From a virus, in the IMG/VR virus record IMGVR_UViG_3300000227_000018, positions 8,370 to 34,138 of that record: a stretch of DNA of 25,769 bases, one strand, 5' to 3'. The position numbers and the translations under genes were made by a program. Below the pieces are notes generated by a model. It did not search any database. It was not told the origin of the DNA and was given only the letters and a program-made list of their open reading frames with translations. Below are positions 187 to 22,503 of the stretch, one piece after another (position 1 is the stretch's first letter; the number at the start of each line of letters is the position of its first letter).

Positions 187-948
187 TTAATTAATAAATG
201 AAACAGCACTCCAAAAATATGAATTAAAAATTAATGTTAATGAACCATAATTGGTATTAATACAAGCAACACTACTTTCATTAATATTAATCCCATTACC
301 ATCAATAAATATTGGATATAATACAGCGTTACCTTGAATATCTGCAATAATTATTTGTTGACCAACATTAGGGGAATTTGGTAAATAAATACATGCACAA
401 TTATTAATTGAATATCCACTAACACCGATAAATCTATCATTATTCAATATATAATATGGTGGTATTCCATTATTGTTAATATTATTAACATTAACAATAT
501 TAATTTTAGTATCAACATACTCTTTATCAACTAAACTACGATTAGTAAATGAACTACTATAATTACCGCCATATTCAATACCAACTTTGTTTAGTCTAAT
601 ATCATTAATTACTGTATTATTAATCAAATCACCACCTAAACTAATGGTATCACCACTTTTTGTCAAACCATTAATAGCATTAACAATACCATTACTTCCG
701 CTATTAAAAACTTCCCAACCACTAGAATTATCAATATTATTAATATCAATTAGCACATAATATTTACTTTCACTAACAACATATACTATTGTTGAATATT
801 CTTTTAATTGGTCTCTTTTCGCAATTAATGAATATAATTCATTTAAATCAGAAACAAATGAACGTAATCCACCTCTAACAAAATTACTATCAACAAACGC
901 ATAATTTGGATTATTATGTTCGTATATGTCGGGTCTTTTAATTGCCAT
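187..948 (-). CDS. Phage tail fibre-type structural protein (253 aa)
   Basis: Probable virion appendage protein. The N-terminal third (about residues 30-82) has a motif seen in fibre-type phage proteins, with phrases like SKYYVLIDI and GWEVFN; the 752-aa neighbour has a related EYWYKNGIG phrase. The middle has the phrase SLVDKEYVD, often found at the junction of phage fibre domains. The last ~80 residues are rich in Asn, Gly and aromatic residues (LPNSPNVGQ, GNGININ, NTNYGSLTLIFN) and look like a beta-sandwich fibre tip. There is no signal peptide and no membrane segment. It starts at ATG 948, 33 bases after the stop of the 752-aa gene, and ends in TAA. Assignment to fibre or baseplate is by composition and recalled family resemblance. 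Confidence 0.6.
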   Translation of the reverse strand: MAIKRPDIYEHNNPNYAFVDSNFVRGGLRSFVSDLNELYSLIAKRDQLKEYSTIVYVVSESKYYVLIDINNIDNSSGWEVFNSGSNGIVNAINGLTKSGDTISLGGDLINNTVINDIRLNKVGIEYGGNYSSSFTNRSLVDKEYVDTKINIVNVNNINNNGIPPYYILNNDRFIGVSGYSINNCACIYLPNSPNVGQQIIIADIQGNAVLYPIFIDGNGININESSVACINTNYGSLTLIFNSYFWSAVSFIN

Positions 949-981
949 GTTACATAATTTAAAAAAATAATTATTTATTTT

Positions 982-3240
982 TTAACTAAATTCCAAACAA
1001 TTATTAGTAAATGCTTTAGGTGCATTACTTTTATATATTATATATGTTTCACTTTGACCGTATTGGTTTGTAACAATATTGTTTAAACAACACGAAAATC
1101 CTCCCAATACAGGTGCAGCACCATCCATAATAGCATTTGTTAATTGACCAAATGATTGCGGATATACAATATATGTATATTGATTATCAGGTGCTGTTAA
1201 TAACATTGCTCTTGTTCTAGTTGATAATAATGCTTGATTACCCAAATTTAAAATATCGCTATTTGATAAAACAGTATTTGCATTATACCCATAATACGAA
1301 GCAAATTTCAAATCTATTGTACATATATCACCATTAGATGTCGTATATTCATCAGATACTACTATTCTATAGCCAATATTATTTGCATTAACTGGCGCAG
1401 TGTTATCAATATACGACTGAATTGTATGTGATATACTATTTAAATCATTGCAAACAACCAAATCAACAAAAGCACCATTATCAACACATCTTTGTATTTT
1501 ATATCCAGTTAAATTAACTAAACTTCTATTTGATGATATTGTTCCATTAATATTAGTAATAACATTACCTTTTTCTCTTTCAAACAAGGTTTCGTAAGAT
1601 TGCAAAGTACCAGAATAGTTTGTTGATATATTGGGTTGTTGATATGCTTGAGGATTAACTACAATGGTAGTCATACCGCTACTACCAGCACTATCAATAA
1701 CACAATATCTATAATGTAATGCATTACTATTAAATCTATTAGCACTATCATTTATACTATGATTATATATACTTGGTGTAATTGTGCTATTAGTTAATGT
1801 AGTCCAATTGGGGTCACCAACTCTACAATATTCCAATTTTGCGCAACTAATAGTAGCACCTAATGTTTTAATTTCATAAGAAAATGATAAATCAACAAAT
1901 TTGTCAATTCTACCAAATTCTAAATTAGAATTATTAACATATAAATTCAATAATGGTGGTAATGCTTCAGATAATGCCATTTTTATAACATCAATTGCAG
2001 ATTTTCCACTTGCTGGTATTATATCACCATTGCAATATTTACCAAAAGTTTTACCATTTGCTATACTAACAATAATATCTTGTGTAAATATGCCATCGCT
2101 ACCCAAACTATTTATTAATATTGTATCACCACTTAATGATACTGAAGTATTACCACTACCCAATATTGTTCTTAATTGTGCATTTCTATTTTCAATATTT
2201 TTATAGATAGGAATACCTGCACCAATATTTGTAACACCTGTTAACGATAAGCCACTACCTTCAGGAGAACTAGAATGTATTACAATTCTATCATTATACT
2301 CTATAATATTAGTATCACCGCTACCAATTAATGATTTAAATTTTAATATATTATTATTGCTACCAGCATAAATTTCAGCACCAGCACCAATACTACTAGC
2401 ACCTAATACAGGTGTCGCACCTGAAATATAAACAAAATAATCATCATAACTAATATCAATAAAATCAGGTGTTTTGCTTTTAATTGTTCTTAAATTTATT
2501 GTTGTATTTTGAATATCACGAAATATAGTACCACCGACACTTATCGTATTACCAGTATTTAAACTACCACTAACAGAATCAATAGTGACATACGAACCAT
2601 TGATATATGGTTGTCCACTTAACCATTCATCATTTGAATATGGTAATGATGGTGATATTCCCGTATAATAAGTAACACCATATTGAAATGTACCAACTAA
2701 ATTATCGACATTACCATCAATAAAAATCCAACCACGTAAATTTGAAGATTGTATATAATCATTCCAAATAAAAGATTTATCTTTTATTTTATTATAATAT
2801 CCTCTACGAAAAACATTATCAACATTAGATGAACCAATACGAATATATCCATTTACATCTCTATAATAGTAATTATATAATGATTCATAATTACCATCAT
2901 AGGCATCATTAGTTAAATGATTAATAGGTAAAATTTGAACACCGCTATTACCTAAAAAAAAACCTAAATTAAATACACTATCAACACCACTACTAGAACC
3001 ACCAACGCCAATTTTTTCAATTAAATCACTATCACCAATACCATTCTTATACCAATATTCACTACCAGATATATTTACAGTTAATCCAATATACCTTTCT
3101 GATGGAATTATTGTTGTATTAACTTCTGTTGTTGATGAATATGGTAGATATACACCATTGATTAATCTATTACTTAAATATCTTTTATCCAATGGTGCTG
3201 GTGCTGCTATTTTAATATTTTCATTATATTGTATTGCCAT
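982..3240 (-). CDS. Large phage fibre/baseplate-appendage protein (752 aa)
   Basis: A long, Ser/Thr/Asn/Gly-rich protein with almost no charged helical stretches, as expected for an extended beta-structured fibre. The N-terminus has the EYWYKNGIG phrase common in phage fibre proteins. Residues roughly 160-420 carry several 'SGxT' segments such as LTGVTNIGAGIPIY and SLSGDTILI. Around residues 385-430 comes a recognisable junction, with KTFGKYCNGDIIPASGK followed by a helix and a PP pair. After that come Ig-like repeats, with phrases such as YRYCVIDSAGSSGMT. It starts with ATG only 2 bases after the stop of the 365-aa gene, so the two are probably co-translated. Function as a fibre is inferred; receptor or partner cannot be read. 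Confidence 0.6.
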   Translation of the reverse strand: MAIQYNENIKIAAPAPLDKRYLSNRLINGVYLPYSSTTEVNTTIIPSERYIGLTVNISGSEYWYKNGIGDSDLIEKIGVGGSSSGVDSVFNLGFFLGNSGVQILPINHLTNDAYDGNYESLYNYYYRDVNGYIRIGSSNVDNVFRRGYYNKIKDKSFIWNDYIQSSNLRGWIFIDGNVDNLVGTFQYGVTYYTGISPSLPYSNDEWLSGQPYINGSYVTIDSVSGSLNTGNTISVGGTIFRDIQNTTINLRTIKSKTPDFIDISYDDYFVYISGATPVLGASSIGAGAEIYAGSNNNILKFKSLIGSGDTNIIEYNDRIVIHSSSPEGSGLSLTGVTNIGAGIPIYKNIENRNAQLRTILGSGNTSVSLSGDTILINSLGSDGIFTQDIIVSIANGKTFGKYCNGDIIPASGKSAIDVIKMALSEALPPLLNLYVNNSNLEFGRIDKFVDLSFSYEIKTLGATISCAKLEYCRVGDPNWTTLTNSTITPSIYNHSINDSANRFNSNALHYRYCVIDSAGSSGMTTIVVNPQAYQQPNISTNYSGTLQSYETLFEREKGNVITNINGTISSNRSLVNLTGYKIQRCVDNGAFVDLVVCNDLNSISHTIQSYIDNTAPVNANNIGYRIVVSDEYTTSNGDICTIDLKFASYYGYNANTVLSNSDILNLGNQALLSTRTRAMLLTAPDNQYTYIVYPQSFGQLTNAIMDGAAPVLGGFSCCLNNIVTNQYGQSETYIIYKSNAPKAFTNNCLEFS

Positions 3241-3242
3241 TT

Positions 3243-4340
3243 TTAACTATTTTTAAATGTCATTTGATAATTAATACTTGTAGCATAACGACTAATATAA
3301 AATTTATATTCAATGTTCGACCAATAACCATTTGGAGAATTAATCGATACTATTTGTTCATTTAAGAATAAATCACCGGGAATCGTGCCACAATTAGTTG
3401 GTGAGTTACTACCTTGCCATTTGGTTTTAGTTGTACTACTTTTAGGAATTGCCAACCAAATATATTCACCCGATATATTATAATTATTAACAACAACATT
3501 ATTATTTGATGGTGCAACGCATACATTATTTAACGAATTTGCATTATTAATAAGCGATTGACTTGCAGATGGTGCATTAATACTACTACCCCAATAATAT
3601 GGATACAAACCGCATAAATTTACAGAAGCACCACAACTACCATTAGGACAACAACTATTAACGTTAGTTCCATCACTTTTTTTAGGATATTCACCTGCAG
3701 AATAACAAACTAATACCGATACTGAATTATTGCCATTTTGTATTGTTACCGATGGTAAAGTATTGGTATCGCTTAGTAATGTTGATATTTTCGTATTTTG
3801 TATGCCATTGATGTTTGTATATGTATAACACATTGGTAATCCTGTTCTTGTTGAAGGACCGTTACAATACACAGGACTTACACATCCACGATTGTACGTT
3901 GTATTTGCAGTAATTGCAACACTAGTTCCTACTTCAAAATAAGGATTATTTGGTAACACATTTAATATTGTTGATGGTGGTGTTAATGTTGGTGACATTA
4001 CTGGCACTAATATCCGTTGTAAAATATCAACAACTTTCATATCGCACAAACAAGTATTTAATGAAATGCCACCAACAGCACAAGTTACCTTATCATTATA
4101 TGGATAAACAACATCTACTGTTGATATTGTTGGTTGTGCTAATACTATACACCCATTTTTATATGTAAAAACATCATCATTAGTTTCATTTTCAATTACA
4201 ATTGGAATTCTACCATAATCACCAGTTAATGTTAAACCGCTTTGACTATTAATAATAGTAGTACCACTTAATGTTAACGTACTTCCAGTTAATTGTTTGA
4301 ATTGAATATCATCCAGATTAGGTCTTGCAAAAAATGTCAT
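3243..4340 (-). CDS. Cysteine-rich phage fibre-type protein (365 aa)
   Basis: First gene of the left-hand structural run, downstream of the terminator at 4491-4522. The N-terminus carries 'LTLSGTTI' and 'LTLTGDYG' phrases. A junction around residues 85-125 (VGGISLNTCLCDMK, then a helix and LTPP) parallels the junction in the 752-aa neighbour, so the two share architecture. The rest is Asn/Ser/Tyr-rich beta-type sequence. It holds about 14 cysteines, including SCCPNGSC, which is unusual for a virion protein assembled in the reducing cytoplasm and could mean metal binding. No enzyme motif is visible. The start is ATG 4340; no purine-rich ribosome site precedes it. Confidence 0.6.
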   Translation of the reverse strand: MTFFARPNLDDIQFKQLTGSTLTLSGTTIINSQSGLTLTGDYGRIPIVIENETNDDVFTYKNGCIVLAQPTISTVDVVYPYNDKVTCAVGGISLNTCLCDMKVVDILQRILVPVMSPTLTPPSTILNVLPNNPYFEVGTSVAITANTTYNRGCVSPVYCNGPSTRTGLPMCYTYTNINGIQNTKISTLLSDTNTLPSVTIQNGNNSVSVLVCYSAGEYPKKSDGTNVNSCCPNGSCGASVNLCGLYPYYWGSSINAPSASQSLINNANSLNNVCVAPSNNNVVVNNYNISGEYIWLAIPKSSTTKTKWQGSNSPTNCGTIPGDLFLNEQIVSINSPNGYWSNIEYKFYISRYATSINYQMTFKNS

Positions 4341-4490
4341 ATTATATAATATTACTAATACTCATATTTTAATTTTTTACGTAACTCATTGACCGTACTA
4401 TTAATTACCTAAACCAACTATTTTTATTTTAGTCGGTATTATCAATTTAATAATAAATACAAAAAAAATTATATAAATTACAATAAATAA
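4341..4490. other. Non-coding spacer with traces of a small broken reading frame
   Basis: With the terminator and 4523-4648 this makes a gap of 308 bases between the TnpB relic's stop and the next gene. On the minus strand one frame reads IPTKIKIVGLGN then TAA. A second frame, one base over, reads STVNELRKKLKYEY then TAG at 4351-4353. Joined by a one-base shift they would make one short peptide, so a frame-broken small gene or leader is possible. A promoter for the fibre genes must lie here, but I cannot place it with confidence. The piece 4523-4648 shows only a small TGTCA/TGACA hairpin (4595-4609). Confidence 0.3.
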
Positions 4491-4522
4491 AAAAAACCCG
4501 AAAGAATTTATTCGGGTTTTTT
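4491..4522 (-). terminator. Strong bidirectional intrinsic terminator
   Basis: A perfect 12-bp stem, AAAAAACCCGAA (4491-4502) with TTCGGGTTTTTT (4511-4522), encloses an 8-base loop. The A and T runs flanking the GC core make it work in either direction. It would end minus-strand transcripts coming from the replication block and the TnpB relic before the fibre genes begin at 4340. Confidence 0.9.
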
Positions 4523-4648
4523 CATTTCATAGTTTATTAAGCACTATAAAGTAAATCTATTTTGTTTTCTTGCTTTCATAGTTCTAAATTACAATGTCAA
4601 TAAATGACAAGATAATTTTAGACGCTTCATTGGCTTCATAACCTCTAC

Positions 4649-5035
4649 CTATGCGTCCGTTAAGTCACCTGAACTCCTGCGACCCTCTTTTAAAATATTT
4701 TGTGCTGCAAGTTCGTCTCTTTTATTCACTCTGCCACAAGATTTACAAATCCAAATCCTGTCTGATAACTTTAAGTCATCATTTTTTACACCACACACAC
4801 AAGTTTTACTACTCGCATAAAATCTATTAACTTTGACAACATCTTTCTCATACCATTCAGCTTTATAGATTAACATTGAGACAAATTTACTCCATGAAGC
4901 ATCACTAATAGAACGAACAAGATGATAATTTTTAATCATGCCACATATATTTAAATCCTCAATGAATATTCTATCATAATCATTAATTAATGATGTGATG
5001 TAATTGTGAAGAAACCAATTTCGTTGATTAACTAT
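4649..5035 (-). pseudogene. Truncated TnpB (IS200/IS605 OrfB) relic
   Basis: The minus-strand frame from 5035 to the TAG at 4649 gives 128 residues that match the C-terminal third of TnpB RNA-guided nucleases. It holds the RuvC-II segment (DRIFIEDLN), then GMIKNYHLVRSISDASWS, KAEWYEKDVVKVNRFYASSKTC, the zinc finger (CGVKN, then CKSCG) and the RuvC-III region (KRDELAAQNIL). Only the part after the Met at 4939 has an ATG. An in-frame TAG (5036-5038) and no recognisable sequence upstream show that the N-terminal two thirds are gone; full proteins run near 370-410 aa. The first zinc knuckle is CxC where CxxC is usual, another sign of decay. G/C is 21 of 40 at 4651-4690, far above the surroundings, which points to acquisition from elsewhere. 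No matching tnpA or clear element ends are visible. Confidence 0.88.
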
Positions 5036-5143
5036 CTAAGGTTTTACATCATCTTTTTTATTTGTCGAGTTTTTTTTATTTTGTTTGGATATATAAATCC
5101 GATATTAATAATAAAAAGTTACAAATATTTATAAAAATTATTA

Positions 5144-16080: not shown

Positions 16081-16716
16081 TTATTGAGTTACTATATATC
16101 TTTTAAGAAAAGTATAATTTGGTAAAATTTTTGAATATTTAATATAAACATTCCCGTCTAAATCATCAATATATTTCGATGTTCGATTACAAAAAATATT
16201 AATGATATCAGAAACATTAAAATTAAAAAAACTATACATAATTATATCAACACCCCATATTTTATCATTTTTTAATACATATAACATTTTGTTTTTATAA
16301 TTATAGACTCTATCAAAATCAGGGGGTAATTTAACAATTAAATCATTTAAATTTTTTATTTGAAAAAAAACAGGGTCTAAATTAATATATTGATAATTAA
16401 ATTCAAAATATATATTAGGTGCAATTTTAACAAAATTTTCAATACCATTAATATGTGATGTTTTGTTTTCATCAAAACTATATTCCCAATACAACTTATT
16501 TTTTAAAATTTTTTTATCTAAAATATCTGCATTTTGTATTATTACATTACTTAAATTACATTTTTTCATAAAAGACCAACCAACATATAATGTTGGCAAA
16601 TTCTTAATTACAGTTACTAATTTATTATATTCTAATGGTTCATTATAATAGTTAATGTATTCAACCATATCATGATTAACCAATTCGTTTTCGTATATAA
16701 TATTAGCAATTTTCAT
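16081..16716 (-). CDS. Unknown protein coupled to hldD (211 aa)
   Basis: I do not recognise a named family. The protein is a mix of short strands and helices with many aromatic residues. Distinctive phrases are NLPTLYVGWSFMKKCNLS (about residues 39-56), KNKLYWEYSFDENKTSH and GIENFVKIAPNIYFEFNYQY, then a C-terminal SDIINIFCNRTSKYIDDL segment. There is no signal peptide, membrane segment or nucleotide-binding loop. Its ATG lies inside the end of hldD (14-base overlap), so it is translationally coupled to the heptose operon and is its last gene. That could mean a role in the sugar pathway. It could equally be an unrelated phage gene placed downstream. Confidence 0.72.
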   Translation of the reverse strand: MKIANIIYENELVNHDMVEYINYYNEPLEYNKLVTVIKNLPTLYVGWSFMKKCNLSNVIIQNADILDKKILKNKLYWEYSFDENKTSHINGIENFVKIAPNIYFEFNYQYINLDPVFFQIKNLNDLIVKLPPDFDRVYNYKNKMLYVLKNDKIWGVDIIMYSFFNFNVSDIINIFCNRTSKYIDDLDGNVYIKYSKILPNYTFLKRYIVTQ

Positions 16717-17611
16717 TTTCTAATTGATTAATATATTCAAAAATACCTTGTTCAATACTATAAAAATTATTATAATAACCAATTTTTCTTAATTTATTAA
16801 TTTTTGCTTCAGTATAATACTGATATTTATTTATTATATTTTGAGGCATATCAATATATTTAATATTTACATTTAAATTCAACGTATTAAATATTGCTTT
16901 AACAACATCATTATATGTTCGTGAAATACCAGTACCAACATTATAAATTCCATTTGGTGGTGTATTATTTATAAAGAATAAACATACATTAATCAAATCG
17001 TTAATATATATAAAATCTCTTTTTTGTTCACCATCTAAAATATCATCACGATACGATTTAAATAATTTAACAATATTATTTTTTTTTATCTGTTTATATG
17101 CCTGTAAAATAAATGATGACATATTACCCTTGTGTTCCTCACCATATCCATACACATTAAAAAATTTCAAACCATACCAAAATGGCGGATATTTTTTTTG
17201 TTTCATTACGTATAAATCAAAATTTTGTTTCGACCAACCATATAAATTTAGTGGATTTAATTTAAATATTGGTTCTTCATCATCAAAACCAAATTCACCA
17301 TCACCATAAGTAGCAGCAGAACTTGCATATATCAACGGTATTTTATTTTCAACACATAAATTCCAAATATATATGGATGAAAATAAATTATACATTTTAA
17401 ATCTTTTATCATCATCCAATGTGGTATCAGTAATTGCTCCAAAATGAATTATAAAATCAATTTTTTTTGCATAATTATATAACCAATATAATATATTAGC
17501 CAAATTATCATTTTTAATATCCAAAGATATAACATCTAATTGACCAGTATCATTTAATTTTTTTATTAAATTCGAACCAATAAATCCCAATCCACCTGTT
17601 ACTACAATCAT
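16703..17611 (-). CDS. hldD: ADP-heptose 6-epimerase (HldD/RfaD)
   Basis: Converts ADP-D-glycero-D-manno-heptose to the L-glycero form, the last step before transfer of heptose to a glycan. It is a short-chain dehydrogenase/epimerase: TGGLGFIGSN (residues 5-14) is the NAD(P)-binding turn, ASSAATYG (96-103) holds the catalytic Ser/Thr region, and Y124xxxK128 (YGWSK) is the active-site pair. The family signature FFNVYGYGEEHKGNMSS (150-166) and LDGEQKRDFIYINDL are diagnostic of HldD within the epimerases. Length, 302 aa, is near the usual ~310. Its ATG overlaps the stop of the adenylyltransferase gene (ATGA). The preceding genes supply the kinase and nucleotidyltransferase of the same pathway. 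Confidence 0.92.
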   Translation of the reverse strand: MIVVTGGLGFIGSNLIKKLNDTGQLDVISLDIKNDNLANILYWLYNYAKKIDFIIHFGAITDTTLDDDKRFKMYNLFSSIYIWNLCVENKIPLIYASSAATYGDGEFGFDDEEPIFKLNPLNLYGWSKQNFDLYVMKQKKYPPFWYGLKFFNVYGYGEEHKGNMSSFILQAYKQIKKNNIVKLFKSYRDDILDGEQKRDFIYINDLINVCLFFINNTPPNGIYNVGTGISRTYNDVVKAIFNTLNLNVNIKYIDMPQNIINKYQYYTEAKINKLRKIGYYNNFYSIEQGIFEYINQLENENC

Positions 17612-18039
17612 ATTTGTCTTATTTTATTAATTATGTTAGTTGTTGACATACTATTTTTTATTGGATAAAAAATAACGCCATGTTTAGCAAATTCAGAACC
17701 AATAACATTTTTATCCTTATAATGGTCACCTATTATAATATAATCAACTTCAAAAAGTTTAATAAAATTCCTCAAATCGTTATCACTATCAAAAACCACA
17801 ACTCTATCAACCATTTTTAAATTTGAAATTATTTTTGCTCTTGTTCTATAATCTAAAATTGGTCTATCATTACCTTTCATTTTTTTTATTCTTTCATCGC
17901 TATCAATACCAACTATTAATTTATTAACATTATATTTATTTAAATCATATTCATTTGTATTATATAATTTAGCATACCATAATAAATCAATATGCCCTAA
18001 ATGTAATAAATCAAAACATCCATTTGTCCAAATAATCAT
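17608..18039 (-). CDS. rfaE2: Heptose-1-phosphate adenylyltransferase (HldE C-domain)
   Basis: Joins D-glycero-beta-D-manno-heptose 1-phosphate to a nucleotide to give the activated sugar. The start MIIWTNGCFDLLHLGHIDLL has the HxGH motif (H13-L-G-H16) of the cytidylyltransferase fold. VGIDSDERIKKMKG and RPILDYRTRAKII match the family core, IIGDHYKDKNVIGSEF the 'GxDY..' region, and SMSTTNIINKI the closing signature. In E. coli this domain is fused behind the kinase in HldE; here it is a separate 143-aa protein, a split form also known elsewhere. Whether it uses ATP or CTP cannot be told from the sequence. It overlaps both neighbours by 4 bases (ATGA) and ends in TGA. Confidence 0.9.
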   Translation of the reverse strand: MIIWTNGCFDLLHLGHIDLLWYAKLYNTNEYDLNKYNVNKLIVGIDSDERIKKMKGNDRPILDYRTRAKIISNLKMVDRVVVFDSDNDLRNFIKLFEVDYIIIGDHYKDKNVIGSEFAKHGVIFYPIKNSMSTTNIINKIRQI

Positions 18040-18320
18040 AATTCATTAATTTTTATTGCTTTATCATCAATAATATAATCATAAGATAATTTATTAAATC
18101 TTAATTCATGGTATAAACAACCCCAATCCGTTAATTGCTTTTTTGTTAAATTACTCCAATCAATTCCACTTTTACCGCCTCTTGCAGTCCAATAAATAAT
18201 ATAATGCCCATTAACATATAAATCATTTATTTTACGTATATTATCAATAATTGGTGTTGCTTTTTCATAGCCATATTCGCTATTACAAATTGTACCATCA
18301 ATATCAACACAAAATATCAT
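18036..18320 (-). CDS. Small HAD-family phosphatase (94 aa)
   Basis: A minimal haloacid-dehalogenase fold enzyme: VDIDGTICNS at the N-terminus carries the nucleophile D6 and acid D8, YWTARGG gives the motif II Thr (T45), and YIIDDKA (D85/D86/K87) fits motifs III-IV. Related short HAD proteins with 'WTARG..SGIDW..LT' occur in polysaccharide clusters. In this operon it may remove a phosphate in heptose synthesis, the GmhB step between kinase and nucleotidyltransferase. GmhB itself is about twice as long (near 190 aa) and has a zinc loop, which is absent here, so this is inference from context. It sits 3 bases after the cupin gene and overlaps the adenylyltransferase gene by 4 bases. Confidence 0.8.
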   Translation of the reverse strand: MIFCVDIDGTICNSEYGYEKATPIIDNIRKINDLYVNGHYIIYWTARGGKSGIDWSNLTKKQLTDWGCLYHELRFNKLSYDYIIDDKAIKINEL

Positions 18321-18323
18321 ACA

Positions 18324-18701
18324 TTAACAATTTTGTGTATCACCACCAATAATACGATAACTATCATTCACATCATCATATGTACTGACTTCAAAAATTT
18401 CAGATTCTTGTAATGCTTCCAATCTATGTGCAATACCTCTGTTAATTTCAACAACATCACCCTCATTTAAATTTTTCTCAATAACATCACCATTATCAGG
18501 ATTTATTGTAATTAATATAAAATTTCCTTTTGTAACATAAAACGTTTCTTTTTTATTAACATGATAATGCAAACTTCCTCTACCACCATCATTAAAATGT
18601 AAAATTTTACCGCAATATTCATTCATTTCATTATGAATTACCAATTCATAACCCCATCCCTTTTCAATTTTTTTTGGTTGTAATATTTCTATATTTCTCA
18701 T
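18324..18701 (-). CDS. Cupin protein, phosphomannose isomerase type II-like
   Basis: A single-domain cupin of 125 aa. The lead KKIEKGWGYELVIHNEMNEYC resembles the 'KPWGYE' start of the cupin domain of type II mannose-6-phosphate isomerase. The metal ligands are in place: H45 and H47 (SLHYH), E52 (KKETFYV) and H92 (GIAHRLEA). Such stand-alone cupins are common in sugar-nucleotide operons, often with isomerase or epimerase roles on sugar phosphates, but the exact reaction cannot be read. It may stand in for a step whose usual enzyme (GmhA) is missing here; that is speculation. The ATG overlaps the kinase stop (ATGA), and the gene ends with TAA. Confidence 0.82.
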   Translation of the reverse strand: MRNIEILQPKKIEKGWGYELVIHNEMNEYCGKILHFNDGGRGSLHYHVNKKETFYVTKGNFILITINPDNGDVIEKNLNEGDVVEINRGIAHRLEALQESEIFEVSTYDDVNDSYRIIGGDTQNC

Positions 18702-19495
18702 AAATATTTAATTTTATTAATATCAATCACTGTAACACCCTTTTTACTAACAACCCAAGATGCACATAAATTAGCAAATTTTACTGCACCACAAATATTA
18801 TAATTTTTAATATAATCTGCAACAAAAGCAGCAAAAAAACTATCACCAGCACCGCTTAAATCTCTGACTTCTAATTTATTTTCAATTGAAATGATTTTAT
18901 TATTAAAAGATTCTTTTATATTTATTATCATTGCACCATCACCACCCAATGTTACAATTATAGTACCATCATAACTATTAATAAATGATACATCAATATT
19001 ATCATTAAATTCTTTTTTATTTATTTTTATAAATTTTATTTTTTTTGCCCAATCGCCAATTTTTTTTTTAGTATCTAAAAAAGTTAATTGGTGATTATTA
19101 GAAATATATTCAATTTGTTCTTCATTTAAGAATCCCTTATTATAATCTGAAATAACAATACCATCATAATTATTATATTGAATATTTTTTAATACATTCC
19201 AATCAATAGGATTTACTTTATCATCAATATCTAACCTTAATAAAATTTGATTTGATTGTTCATCAACAAATCTAATTTTTTTTGGCATTAATTCATTAAT
19301 ATCATTTGTATAAATATCAACATTAACATTTAAACCTTTTAAATTATTATAAACATTCATTGCCATACCTTCATTTTCAATAACACGTGTTGGTGTTATT
19401 ATTGGTACTGGTGCTTCTGGTGATAATCTATCACATTTTCCATATTGAAAAATATCATTACAACTATCTCCAATAACTAAAATTTTTTCACTCAT
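18698..19495 (-). CDS. rfaE1: Heptose-7-phosphate kinase (HldE N-domain)
   Basis: Phosphorylates D-glycero-D-manno-heptose 7-phosphate at C1. It is a PfkB-family kinase: the start ILVIGDSCNDIFQYGKCDRL, then SPEAPVPI (residues 25-32), is the HldE signature, where GD..LD..Y.G...R.SPEAPVP is normal. The usual GGAANVA turn is changed to EGMAMNVYNNL. The closing DLSGAGDSFFAAF contains the GAGD anion hole and catalytic Asp. Length, 265 aa, is below the ~310 residues of the domain in E. coli HldE, with shorter loops in the middle. It is the first gene of the heptose operon, with about 100 bases of A/T-rich DNA between it and the interrupted glycosyltransferase, and it overlaps the cupin gene by 4 bases. 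Confidence 0.87.
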   Translation of the reverse strand: MSEKILVIGDSCNDIFQYGKCDRLSPEAPVPIITPTRVIENEGMAMNVYNNLKGLNVNVDIYTNDINELMPKKIRFVDEQSNQILLRLDIDDKVNPIDWNVLKNIQYNNYDGIVISDYNKGFLNEEQIEYISNNHQLTFLDTKKKIGDWAKKIKFIKINKKEFNDNIDVSFINSYDGTIIVTLGGDGAMIINIKESFNNKIISIENKLEVRDLSGAGDSFFAAFVADYIKNYNICGAVKFANLCASWVVSKKGVTVIDINKIKYL

Positions 19496-19597: not shown

Positions 19598-20104
19598 TTA
19601 ATTATAATTATTCATAGTTTTTATTTTATTTACTATATATTCAGGCAAACCAATATCTTCAATTTTATTATCTGTATCAATAAATGGATATTTTATATCA
19701 ATATAATAATTATTTCTATATTTACTAATTGTGTTATATTCATCTGTTTCAATACCATCAGATAATAAATCATCAGATGTAAAATATTTCATATTTGCAT
19801 TTATTTCCCTAACAGTACTAATAAGAAAAAAATCAACGCCACTATTTATATTTGATGATTTAAATAATCTTGCGTATTTTGATTTTAGTGCCATATATAT
19901 ATTTGTTCTAGAATGCGCATCGTATTGTATCAATTTATCATAAGTAAAACTATAAAAATAACTTTTACTAAAATCAATCCAGTCATAATCTAAGTTTTTT
20001 ATTAAATCATATGATTTAACTAAACGCATACTAGGTGAATAACAATCAATACCATGTAGTAAAAAAACACTACTATTATTATCAATATTTTTTCCAATAA
20101 TTTT
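19598..20104 (-). pseudogene. C-terminal part of interrupted glycosyltransferase
   Basis: This stretch continues the 230-aa frame above it in the same phase after a single TGA at 20105-20107. It opens with KIIGKNIDNNSSVFLLHGID, then CYSPSMRLVKSYDLI. The first Met (20029) falls inside the conserved-looking CYSPSMR, so it is not a natural start. The rest (DWIDFSKSYFYSFTYDKLIQ, SRTNIYMALKSKYARLF) completes a GT-A-type domain. Unless the TGA is read through, or the ATG at 20029 is used, it is not made. It ends in TAA, about 100 bases before the heptose kinase gene. Confidence 0.75.
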
Positions 20105-20797
20105 TCATTTTTCTGGTAAATTAATCCATTTATCAACTAATAAATATGTTATTTTTCTACATCCAACGTTATATAATCTATCAATATATTGATAAAAAAA
20201 ATCTTCACCAATCATATTATCATGTTCTTCTTCACAAATAACAATTTCCCAATCAAAATTAACATTAATCTGATTACATAATCCTTCCAAGCACAACCAT
20301 GCAATTTTATTACCATTATATGCTGGAATTGCCACACTTAAATCTATTTTATTACTATCAGAATTTAATATTTCTTTTTTCGTATAATTATATGTCATAT
20401 TATTTATTGTGGATATATTATTAATATTATTTATTTTCTTGTTTAAAGGAACATCAATAACAATATTTTTATTACTATTAATATTAGTACTATAATCAAC
20501 ATTTTTTATTGTTGAATTATTAACAATATCTATATTTTTTGTAACATATTCATTTTTATTTTTAAAAACAAAACCATTTTTCTTTATATTATTATTTACA
20601 TTATCATTAATATCTTTTATATGATTACTATTAATAGTATTATTTTTCTTTACGACAATATTTATATTTTTTTTTACTTTACTAAAATCAATATTATCAT
20701 TCTTTTTTACAACAATTTTCGATTTCAATATTTCTTTATTTGAATCGTTATTAGTTTTTTTTATTATTCTTTTTATATCAATTTTTTGTCTTTTCAT
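20105..20797 (-). CDS. Glycosyltransferase, N-terminal part, ends at in-frame TGA
   Basis: Residues 1-150 are basic, Asn/Lys-rich and repetitive (KIVVKKNDNI, INIVVKKNNTI), very likely disordered. From residue ~152 a GT2-like domain begins: DLSVAIPAYNGNKIAWLCLE, WEIVICEEEHDN (an acidic pair at the usual place) and KITYLLVDKWINLPEK. The frame then meets TGA at codon 231, yet continues sensibly on the other side. With Trp at that codon the text would read NLPEKWKIIG, which fits my recollection of a conserved 'EKW' in this family. The whole 19598-20797 frame would give 399 residues. Trp is TGG elsewhere and TGA is a real stop in three ATGA overlaps, so a nonsense mutation, sequencing error or readthrough is likelier than a changed code. 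Acceptor unknown. Confidence 0.75.
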   Translation of the reverse strand: MKRQKIDIKRIIKKTNNDSNKEILKSKIVVKKNDNIDFSKVKKNINIVVKKNNTINSNHIKDINDNVNNNIKKNGFVFKNKNEYVTKNIDIVNNSTIKNVDYSTNINSNKNIVIDVPLNKKINNINNISTINNMTYNYTKKEILNSDSNKIDLSVAIPAYNGNKIAWLCLEGLCNQINVNFDWEIVICEEEHDNMIGEDFFYQYIDRLYNVGCRKITYLLVDKWINLPEK

Positions 20798-20805
20798 ATT
20801 AAAAT

Positions 20806-22116
20806 TTATTTACCATTATTTGGTTTTCCTTGCGTTTCTGTTAACACGTAATTAATCCATTTTATTTTTAATTTTTTATTTAATAATTGTTTTACTACCC
20901 GATAGTCTCCATAACTCCAAGAACCCCAATCAACTGGTAAATGTTTTGTATGAAACATAATTCCAATACCTGATACATTACCAGCATTTATTCTTTTGCC
21001 AAAATCATTATCATTAGGAACAATCCATCCATTTTCATTTATTTTAATATTTACTTTCCATATTAATAACTCATCTTCATTTTCAATATGATTAATAATA
21101 ATTTCCAATGATTTTTTATGCGAAAACATATCATCATCATCTAAATACATCACCCAACCATATTTTACATAATTCGCTAATTCATTTAAGTGTAAATTCC
21201 ATGGTGCTGGATATGTATTATATTCAGGCATTAACCGTGGATATTCAACATCTTTTAATTTTAAAAAAATTGTATTATCATAATAATTACAATCAATATC
21301 ACTTCCCACAATATGATTAATATTCTTATGTGTTTGATTTACTATTGATTCTCTGCATTTTTTAAATAAATCAGGTCTATTATGTGTTCTCGTTATAATA
21401 TTAATCATAATATCATTATTTTCTTTATTATCTTGACAATAATAAATTGGTAATTCATCATAATATTTTTCAACAAATTTTTTTCTATTTATATCCCATT
21501 CCTTATTTACAGTACCAATTGAATTATGTAATATTCTAATATCCGTTGTTACACCAATATTACATCCATCTAAATAATTCGGTATGCAAAATGATAAATC
21601 ATAAAAATGAAACCCATTAAAATCTTCATCAAATTTATGTATTATTGTATCAGGATTAAACGAAATGAATAATCCATCTACTAAAACAACAGGACTAATA
21701 CATCCTTTTTTTTCTAAACTATATTCACTAATCCATGTTTTGTATCCATTTGTATGTTCAACAATTCCAATCATTTTACTACGGTCTTCCCACCAAACAC
21801 CACTTTCTGGCAAATATGTACTACCAGCAACTCCAATTATATCATAATTACTATTATTAAATTTATTTAATAATATTTTTCCCCAATTTTTAGTTTTAAA
21901 ATAAATATCATTATGACACATTACAAAAATACAATCATCTTCATACTTTGTATGTATTGCATGATTATATATATATGAAAGACTATATTGATTATAATTA
22001 TTATAATAATAAATTTTATGATTACAACCTATTGTATTTTTTATGTGTTCAATAAATTTATTATTTTCATCATTTGACAATTGTGATGAAAATATAACTA
22101 CTATTTTATTCTTCAT
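20806..22116 (-). CDS. Two-domain glycosyltransferase (436 aa)
   Basis: Two GT-A-like units in one chain. Residues 1-~225 resemble the 'Glyco_tranf_2_5' type: IVVIFSSQLSND, FVMCHNDIYF (HND at 68-70 in place of DxD), IIGVAGSTYLP, VDGLFISFNPD and FHFYDLSFCIPNY. Residues ~237-436 look like a second GT2 unit: INIITRTHNRPDLFKKCRES, SIVNQTHKNINHIVG and the metal-site motif MYLDDDDMFS (D326-D329), ending with WSYGDYRVVKQLLNKKLKIK. The second domain is likely the catalytic one with sugar nucleotide; both may act. No membrane segment or signal peptide is present, so it acts in the cytoplasm. It lies 8 bases ahead of the interrupted glycosyltransferase and upstream of the heptose operon, so heptose is a plausible donor sugar. 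Confidence 0.85.
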   Translation of the reverse strand: MKNKIVVIFSSQLSNDENNKFIEHIKNTIGCNHKIYYYNNYNQYSLSYIYNHAIHTKYEDDCIFVMCHNDIYFKTKNWGKILLNKFNNSNYDIIGVAGSTYLPESGVWWEDRSKMIGIVEHTNGYKTWISEYSLEKKGCISPVVLVDGLFISFNPDTIIHKFDEDFNGFHFYDLSFCIPNYLDGCNIGVTTDIRILHNSIGTVNKEWDINRKKFVEKYYDELPIYYCQDNKENNDIMINIITRTHNRPDLFKKCRESIVNQTHKNINHIVGSDIDCNYYDNTIFLKLKDVEYPRLMPEYNTYPAPWNLHLNELANYVKYGWVMYLDDDDMFSHKKSLEIIINHIENEDELLIWKVNIKINENGWIVPNDNDFGKRINAGNVSGIGIMFHTKHLPVDWGSWSYGDYRVVKQLLNKKLKIKWINYVLTETQGKPNNGK

Positions 22117-22176: not shown

Positions 22177-22485
22177 TTATTTTATTGATTTCAATATATT
22201 TTCATAATCCATAATTGCTTTACTTAATGGATATGGTATTCTTATAACTGCTCCATCAGGTATATCAAATTCTGAAACATATTCACTATTTGCATATAAA
22301 ATTAAAAAATCATAAAATGGACTATTATAATAGATATTTGATAATTTATCCATTCTACTAGTCGATGTATACCAATAAACATATTTATCTGTTGAATTTA
22401 TTGGTAATTTAATAAATGGCATAGGTATCAATGTGCCATCACTATTTTTTAAATTAGAATATCTATCGTAATCAAATTTTACCAT
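22177..22485 (-). CDS. Baseplate wedge protein, T4 gp53/LysM-like
   Basis: The frame can be read from TTG at 22491, but the ATG at 22485 (MVKFDYDRYSNL) is the better start, giving 102 aa. The pattern STSRMDKLSNIYYNSPFYDFL, then LILYAN and IPDGAVIRIPYPL (about residues 41-88), is that of gp53-type baseplate wedge proteins and the LysM-like tail proteins of contractile systems, which clamp baseplate parts together. The usual lead Trp is here as YWYTSTSR. It lies 18 bases after the 965-aa baseplate/tube protein, which supports a shared assembly. At this size it is near the single-domain length of the family. Confidence 0.7.
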   Translation of the reverse strand: MVKFDYDRYSNLKNSDGTLIPMPFIKLPINSTDKYVYWYTSTSRMDKLSNIYYNSPFYDFLILYANSEYVSEFDIPDGAVIRIPYPLSKAIMDYENILKSIK

Positions 22486-22503
22486 AATCAATTATTATTA
22501 TCA

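Follow-up and report, generated by a model that had tools for sequence, protein, structure and literature searches.

Five putative heptose-pathway genes in a variable sugar island of an uncultured large phage

Why should a phage carry, among the genes for its virion, a set of enzymes that could make an activated heptose, and what would it do with the sugar? The question is raised by a stretch of 25,769 nucleotides (hereafter the window), which corresponds to bases 8370-34138 of the 34,138-base IMG/VR virus record IMGVR_UViG_3300000227_000018, a partial record. It belongs to a 34 kb fragment of a large, AT-rich (24% GC) uncultured phage. Five co-directional genes on its minus strand, at 16703-19495, specify a kinase, a cupin, a mini-HAD protein, a nucleotidyltransferase and an HldD epimerase. 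The gene set is already known from ocean cyanophages; here it is found in a different, uncultured lineage of jumbo phages. The reading of these genes as a heptose pathway is well supported. That they make a heptose donor, which is then used to glycosylate virion proteins in the cytoplasm, is a fuller proposal to which we give about an even chance. Positions are those of the window unless a contig is named.

The five-gene operon and its putative heptose enzymes

The genes are given here in their order along the operon:
18698-19495, minus strand: short PfkB-family kinase, HldA-like, candidate heptose 7-phosphate 1-kinase (profile matches, motifs, PHROG 8133)
18324-18701, minus strand: single-domain metal-binding cupin, candidate sugar-phosphate isomerase that may stand in for GmhA (Cupin_1/Cupin_2, PHROG 7851)
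18036-18320, minus strand: mini-HAD phosphatase of 94 residues, candidate stand-in for GmhB (HAD motifs, PHROG 1238)
17608-18039, minus strand: HldC-like nucleotidyltransferase (PF01467, motifs, PHROG 7878)
16703-17611, minus strand: HldD, ADP-glyceromanno-heptose 6-epimerase (TIGR02197, motifs, PHROG 540)

Four-base ATGA overlaps join the kinase gene to the cupin gene, the HAD gene to the nucleotidyltransferase gene, and the latter to hldD; the cupin and HAD genes are separated by a 3-base gap, and hldD and the next gene (16081-16716) share 14 bases. Positions and junctions are exactly as claimed in an earlier note on this DNA (the sequence-only reading), and matches to hidden Markov models (HMMs) placed each of the five proteins in the family type it had named. 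All five match phage families. That note had listed loss of active-site residues and a contig of host DNA as findings that would refute its reading. Catalytic motifs turned out to be retained in all five proteins. The flanking genes encode a baseplate-wedge-like protein, a DnaB-like helicase and a UvsX-like recombinase, and the record is a virus contig. Since the flanks are of phage type and the syntenic relatives are phage contigs of up to 365 kb, an origin from host DNA was ruled out. A survey of related phage genomes, which the note had also proposed, was run: other phage contigs of this kinship have the five genes in identical order, and the arrangement is therefore not due to chance.

The epimerase scored above the curated equivalog cut-off for heptose epimerases (heptose_epim, TIGR02197; 312.6 bits compared to 274.6). 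Its structural relatives are 4ej0 and 1eq2 (E 1e-44 to 1e-43), and it has the Rossmann motif GGLGFIG, the YxxxK motif at Y124/K128, and EEHKG, with the HKG lysine, at 158. The best matches of the kinase and the nucleotidyltransferase are the two domains of HldE. The kinase matched PfkB (PF00294, 1e-20) and rfaE_dom_I (1e-35); its closest solved relative is HldA (4e84), GAGD lies at 215-218, and ISDY.KG and N..E (N159/E162) are invariant in alignment A1. The nucleotidyltransferase matched CTP_transf_like (PF01467, 1e-13) and rfaE_dom_II (2e-29); relatives of solved structure are 5x9q and 1coz, and the motifs HLGH (HxGH) at 13-16 and STT at 132 are kept. Both proteins fall below the equivalog cut-offs, namely 123.2 bits compared to 345 for HldA (TIGR02198), and 102.1 compared to 181.5 for HldC (TIGR02199). 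The roles as kinase, nucleotidyltransferase and epimerase are assigned by homology.

Compared with the known HldE/GmhA/GmhB/HldD pathway, HldD is common to both; the phage kinase is a relative of HldE domain I, and the nucleotidyltransferase of domain II. Unlike in HldE, however, they are encoded by separate genes and the kinase is short; and in place of GmhA, a SIS protein, and GmhB, neither of which was found, the phage set has the cupin and the mini-HAD. The sequence-only reading had credited the operon with most of the route to an activated heptose. The HldD score and the conserved kinase and nucleotidyltransferase motifs bear this out, and the claim may even be an understatement, given the cupin and the mini-HAD.

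As to the phage itself, a search for the nearest isolate with virion proteins of 965 and 470 residues gave no match among 50,697 phage records. No obvious Shine-Dalgarno sequences were seen by eye; this and the low GC content are compatible with a Bacteroidota host, a fit that proves nothing. Elsewhere in the window, a 96-residue open reading frame (ORF) at 4649-4939 matches only the C-terminal TnpB/Cas12f1-like domain (PF07282). It is apparently a transposon remnant, flanked on one side by a tail-fibre-like gene and on the other by the helicase gene.

Candidate isomerase and phosphatase

Could the remaining two genes supply the missing steps? The cupin matches its HMMs with an E value of 1e-09, and its metal site (H44, H46, E51 and H91, numbered without the initial Met) is invariant in 29 phage cupins. 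Its structural model has a predicted local distance difference test (pLDDT) score of 92, and the nearest fold found with VIA-align was that of 7zvy, a phosphomannose isomerase of the archaeal cupin type (Z 15.0, root-mean-square deviation 2.0 over 105 residues), with CapF and others, including non-isomerases, tied within 1. Because of these ties, the fold alone does not settle the function. It is not the SIS fold of GmhA. The mini-HAD gave a weak HMM match (NF046079, 2e-06), and its DxD, T, K and DD motifs are kept (D6/D8, T45, K77, D85/D86). Its relatives in the PDB are small HAD proteins: 9iqw, named 'capsule biosynthesis protein' (4e-19), 1xpj and 2obb, the first two being the nearest.

The public names of these families are 'cysteine dioxygenase' for PHROG 7851 (the cupin) and 'phosphoheptose isomerase' for PHROG 1238 (the mini-HAD). 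That the mini-HAD is a genuine phosphoheptose isomerase, as its RefSeq/PHROG name would have it, was rejected in view of its HAD motifs and HAD relatives in the PDB. More generally, the naming of HAD proteins of about 100 residues (PHROG 1238, cyanophage T4-GC 306) as phosphoheptose isomerase is probably a misannotation.

Conventional enzymes for the two steps were then looked for. Neither GmhA/SIS (TIGR00441) nor GmhB-type (TIGR01656 group) proteins were matched in the contig, itself a partial record, or in seven complete genomes of cyanophages that carry the five-gene set, where the cupin and the mini-HAD are always present. Nothing exceeded the SIS_2 cut-off in 20 viral contigs, and tblastn with E. 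coli GmhA and GmhB gave no match at any of 80 IMG/VR kinase loci. From the co-occurrence, the fold families and the missing GmhA and GmhB, it is plausible that the five genes cover five pathway steps, the cupin serving for isomerisation and the mini-HAD for dephosphorylation.

A bacterial example bears on the same point. In an Armatimonadete operon (L059:5313-10211), an RpiB-nucleotidyltransferase fusion, a kinase, a cupin, a mini-HAD and a transaldolase are encoded together with a GT9 gene, apparently as a compact bacterial heptose pathway. The transaldolase and GT9 neighbours tie the four gene types to sedoheptulose/heptose metabolism. The RpiB domain is, however, a rival isomerase, and GmhA-like genes lie elsewhere in that genome, so that exclusion of GmhA is not decisive for bacteria with the set.

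A variable sugar island and its relatives

The operon lies in a region bounded by two conserved genes, which we call the sugar island:
22177-22491, minus strand: baseplate-wedge (gp53-like) protein, 5' edge of the island (PHROG 7145, E 0.0015)
20806-22116, minus strand: two-domain glycosyltransferase, 5' end of the island (PF13712, 1.7e-23; PF00535, 1.1e-08)
19598-20797, minus strand: glycosyltransferase-like gene (by eye), interrupted by a TGA (two ORFs in one frame)
16081-16716, minus strand: conserved protein of 211 residues, 3' edge of the island (lineage contigs)

Proteins of the virion region of the window recur in a group of IMG/VR contigs of up to 365 kb. The 211-residue protein directly follows the island in 24 of the 39 lineage contigs. 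The gp53-like protein has a homologue of 61% identity in contig L100, where it is adjoined by a 63% identical homologue of the two-domain glycosyltransferase; proteins related to the latter head the islands of other contigs. Between these edges, content differs from contig to contig, and comprises glycosyltransferases, methyltransferases and nucleotide-sugar enzymes (functions judged by eye). The complete kinase-cupin-HAD-nucleotidyltransferase-HldD order was encountered in seven contigs, that is, G000 (this one), G001, G002, G003, G004, G024 and G027; in G045 and G051 the HAD alone is absent from this position, and others have the kinase alone, kinase and cupin, kinase and HAD, or none of these genes. 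In this lineage, then, a hypervariable sugar island occupies the stretch between the gp53-like and 211-residue genes, and the operon is one of its variants. In related phages, the operon also contains probable homing-endonuclease-like insertions (by eye), which adjoin the mini-HAD gene or are fused to it (L100:9156-10097 and L249:2492-3643).

Of the two glycosyltransferases that the sequence-only reading had placed upstream of the operon, the one at 20806-22116 is intact and has both domains. In the other, codon 231 (20105-20107) is a TGA that interrupts the frame at a position where Trp would fit; this gene gave no Pfam match. The TGA reflects either a broken gene or a sequencing error, and no homologue close enough to judge between the two was found. 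A genetic code in which TGA means Trp was ruled out, since TGA is the stop codon of three operon genes within the 4-base overlaps.

How far does the gene set extend among other phages? A search of viral contigs with the kinase alignment gave matches; at the 80 kinase loci mentioned above, a nucleotidyltransferase was nearby in 46, a cupin in 36, an HAD in 30 and an epimerase in 31. A single HldD protein used as query gave no match among viral contigs. Relatives of the kinase are present in hundreds of viral contigs, many of which have the rest of the set, yet the literature searched contained neither an assay of the pathway nor an identified acceptor. By tblastn against annotated phages, 32 records matched the kinase, 35 the cupin and 38 the mini-HAD, and almost all of these records are from cyanophages or marine viruses. 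All five genes occur in one region in P-SSM2, S-SSM7, S-CAM1, S-CAM3, P-TIM68, Sf-FS3 and S-SM2.

The same five families make up the lipopolysaccharide ('LPS') cluster of T4-like cyanophages (T4-GC 304-308), at 30-57% protein identity, and that cluster also often adjoins tail-fibre or neck genes. Its order is usually nucleotidyltransferase-kinase-HAD-cupin, and the epimerase gene is often encoded by the other strand, whereas here all five genes are on one strand. The cyanophage epimerases tested reached 185-230 bits, which is under the TIGR02197 cut-off, unlike HldD of the window. Four of the families (T4-GC 304, 305, 307 and 308; nucleotidyltransferase, kinase, cupin and epimerase according to record annotations) were described as co-occurring "LPS genes" in a 2010 paper, and genes for a heptose kinase, a 'phosphoheptose isomerase' and an epimerase have been named in Synechococcus phage SynMITS9220M01 (PMC7378029). 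The 'phosphoheptose isomerase' of cyanophage records is HAD-like by sequence, and not SIS. The novelty of the operon had been overstated, for annotations of cyanophage genomes have long included these genes, and the idea that phage 'LPS genes' block superinfection is an old one, put forward for P-SSM2 (PMC2984593). Moraphages and other Bacteroidota jumbo phages are likewise large and aquatic, with several core glycosyltransferases (PMC12619734).

Possible uses of the putative heptose

In the explanation we favour, the five enzymes would convert sedoheptulose 7-phosphate, in the infected cell, into a nucleotide-activated glycero-manno-heptose, most likely ADP-heptose in its L,D form after HldD, with the cupin acting as isomerase and the mini-HAD as phosphatase. 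The donor would be used by the island glycosyltransferases, and possibly also by a GT9-fold protein encoded near tail-fibre-like genes, so that a variable glycan would be attached to virion proteins in the cytoplasm. The island would then be a swap-in module that varies among related phages, and receptors, defences or grazers probably select for changes in its glycan.

The GT9-fold candidate lies outside the window:
4211-5116 of the contig: GT9-fold protein of 301 residues, between long tail-fibre-like genes

Among 31 viral contigs in which this protein was found, 28 match at 66-80% identity. Sequence searches named no family for it, with no match to PF01075 or any other Pfam entry. A homologue (L174) was modelled with a pLDDT of 79. 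By VIA-align this model gave Z 23.7 with 3tov, 20.7 with WaaF and 19.4 with both TibC and WaaC; the next fold not labelled GT9 was at 11.4, except for plant NDH-complex subunits at about 19. The protein is thus predicted to have the heptosyltransferase (GT9) fold, identity to the known GT9 enzymes WaaC, WaaF and TibC, the last a protein O-heptosyltransferase, being only about 11-13%. In the same stretch, at 867-4073 of the contig, a tail-fibre-like protein contains a run of 'NIGIGxxAL' repeats of about 17 residues (by eye).

Among 154 ORFs, taken from the window and from eight related islands, a hydropathy scan detected no transmembrane segment; in a bacterial polysaccharide locus used as control it detected several. 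The result speaks against lipid-linked export by the island on its own and for a cytoplasmic acceptor. Decoration of the virion is favoured because the island lies beside baseplate genes, has no transmembrane ORFs, and is accompanied by a GT9-type gene next to tail-fibre-like genes. It was one of several uses put forward by the sequence-only reading; another, the stimulation of innate immunity, is without support for an environmental phage. A more specific version, in which a self-sufficient ADP-heptose pathway (cupin for GmhA, mini-HAD for GmhB) feeds a TibC-like, cytoplasmic heptosylation of the phage's own tail proteins by the GT9-fold protein, seems to us unlikely.

Several observations weigh against virion glycosylation by a phage-made heptose. 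No acceptor was identified. With the kinase and nucleotidyltransferase under their cut-offs, their substrate is not assured. Host enzymes could take over isomerisation and dephosphorylation. Mini-HADs of several bacterial loci adjoin genes that resemble those for sialic-acid-type synthesis (by eye), and the mini-HAD is therefore not heptose-specific. Islands with the kinase alone, or with only the HAD or cupin in addition, cannot complete the pathway by themselves. Finally, the GT9-fold protein has a Lys (K27) at the canonical 'GD' position, which reads GK (by eye), and the GT9-type gene is also found in long lineage contigs in which no kinase or epimerase was detected.

Among the alternatives, the one that survives best is that the operon feeds a remodelling of host LPS or surface glycans, so as to exclude superinfection or protect the infected cell. 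The LPS core is usually built with ADP-L,D-heptose as donor, and WaaC and WaaF belong to the GT9 fold. Such a role has been published as a proposal for P-SSM2 (PMC2984593). However, the nine island regions contain no membrane-bound initiating transferase, flippase or polymerase, and the island is embedded in a region for baseplate and other structural proteins, not among early genes; we consider this explanation possible, yet doubtful.

The enzymes may instead act on another sugar phosphate and yield a nucleotide sugar other than a heptose. The sub-threshold kinase and nucleotidyltransferase scores would allow this, as would the diversity of substrates in the PfkB and cytidylyltransferase families and the mini-HAD relatives in other sugar clusters. 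It is made improbable by an HldD above the heptose-epimerase cut-off, by the proximity of the other two enzymes to HldA and HldC, and by the Armatimonadete cluster, where the same four gene types are joined with a transaldolase and a GT9 gene. Less probable still is a degenerating or filler cassette, that is, sugar genes gained and lost without present function. Such 'stuffer DNA' has been suggested for large cyanophages (PMC3037559), and the partial sets of several contigs and the TGA-broken glycosyltransferase gene would fit; against it stand five intact frames, catalytic residues invariant across distant phages, preserved stop/start overlaps and recurrent co-occurrence. Modification of the phage DNA against restriction is the least probable use, since, although DNA is a known substrate of phage glycosyltransferases (cited in PMC12619734), no gene for modified-nucleotide synthesis was recognised in the window and the neighbours are virion genes, not those of nucleotide metabolism.

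If the cupin and the mini-HAD are the missing isomerase and phosphatase, the misnamed PHROGs 7851 and 1238 gain a testable role. If the sugar is placed on virions, this would explain why a variable sugar island is kept between the tail genes of large phages.

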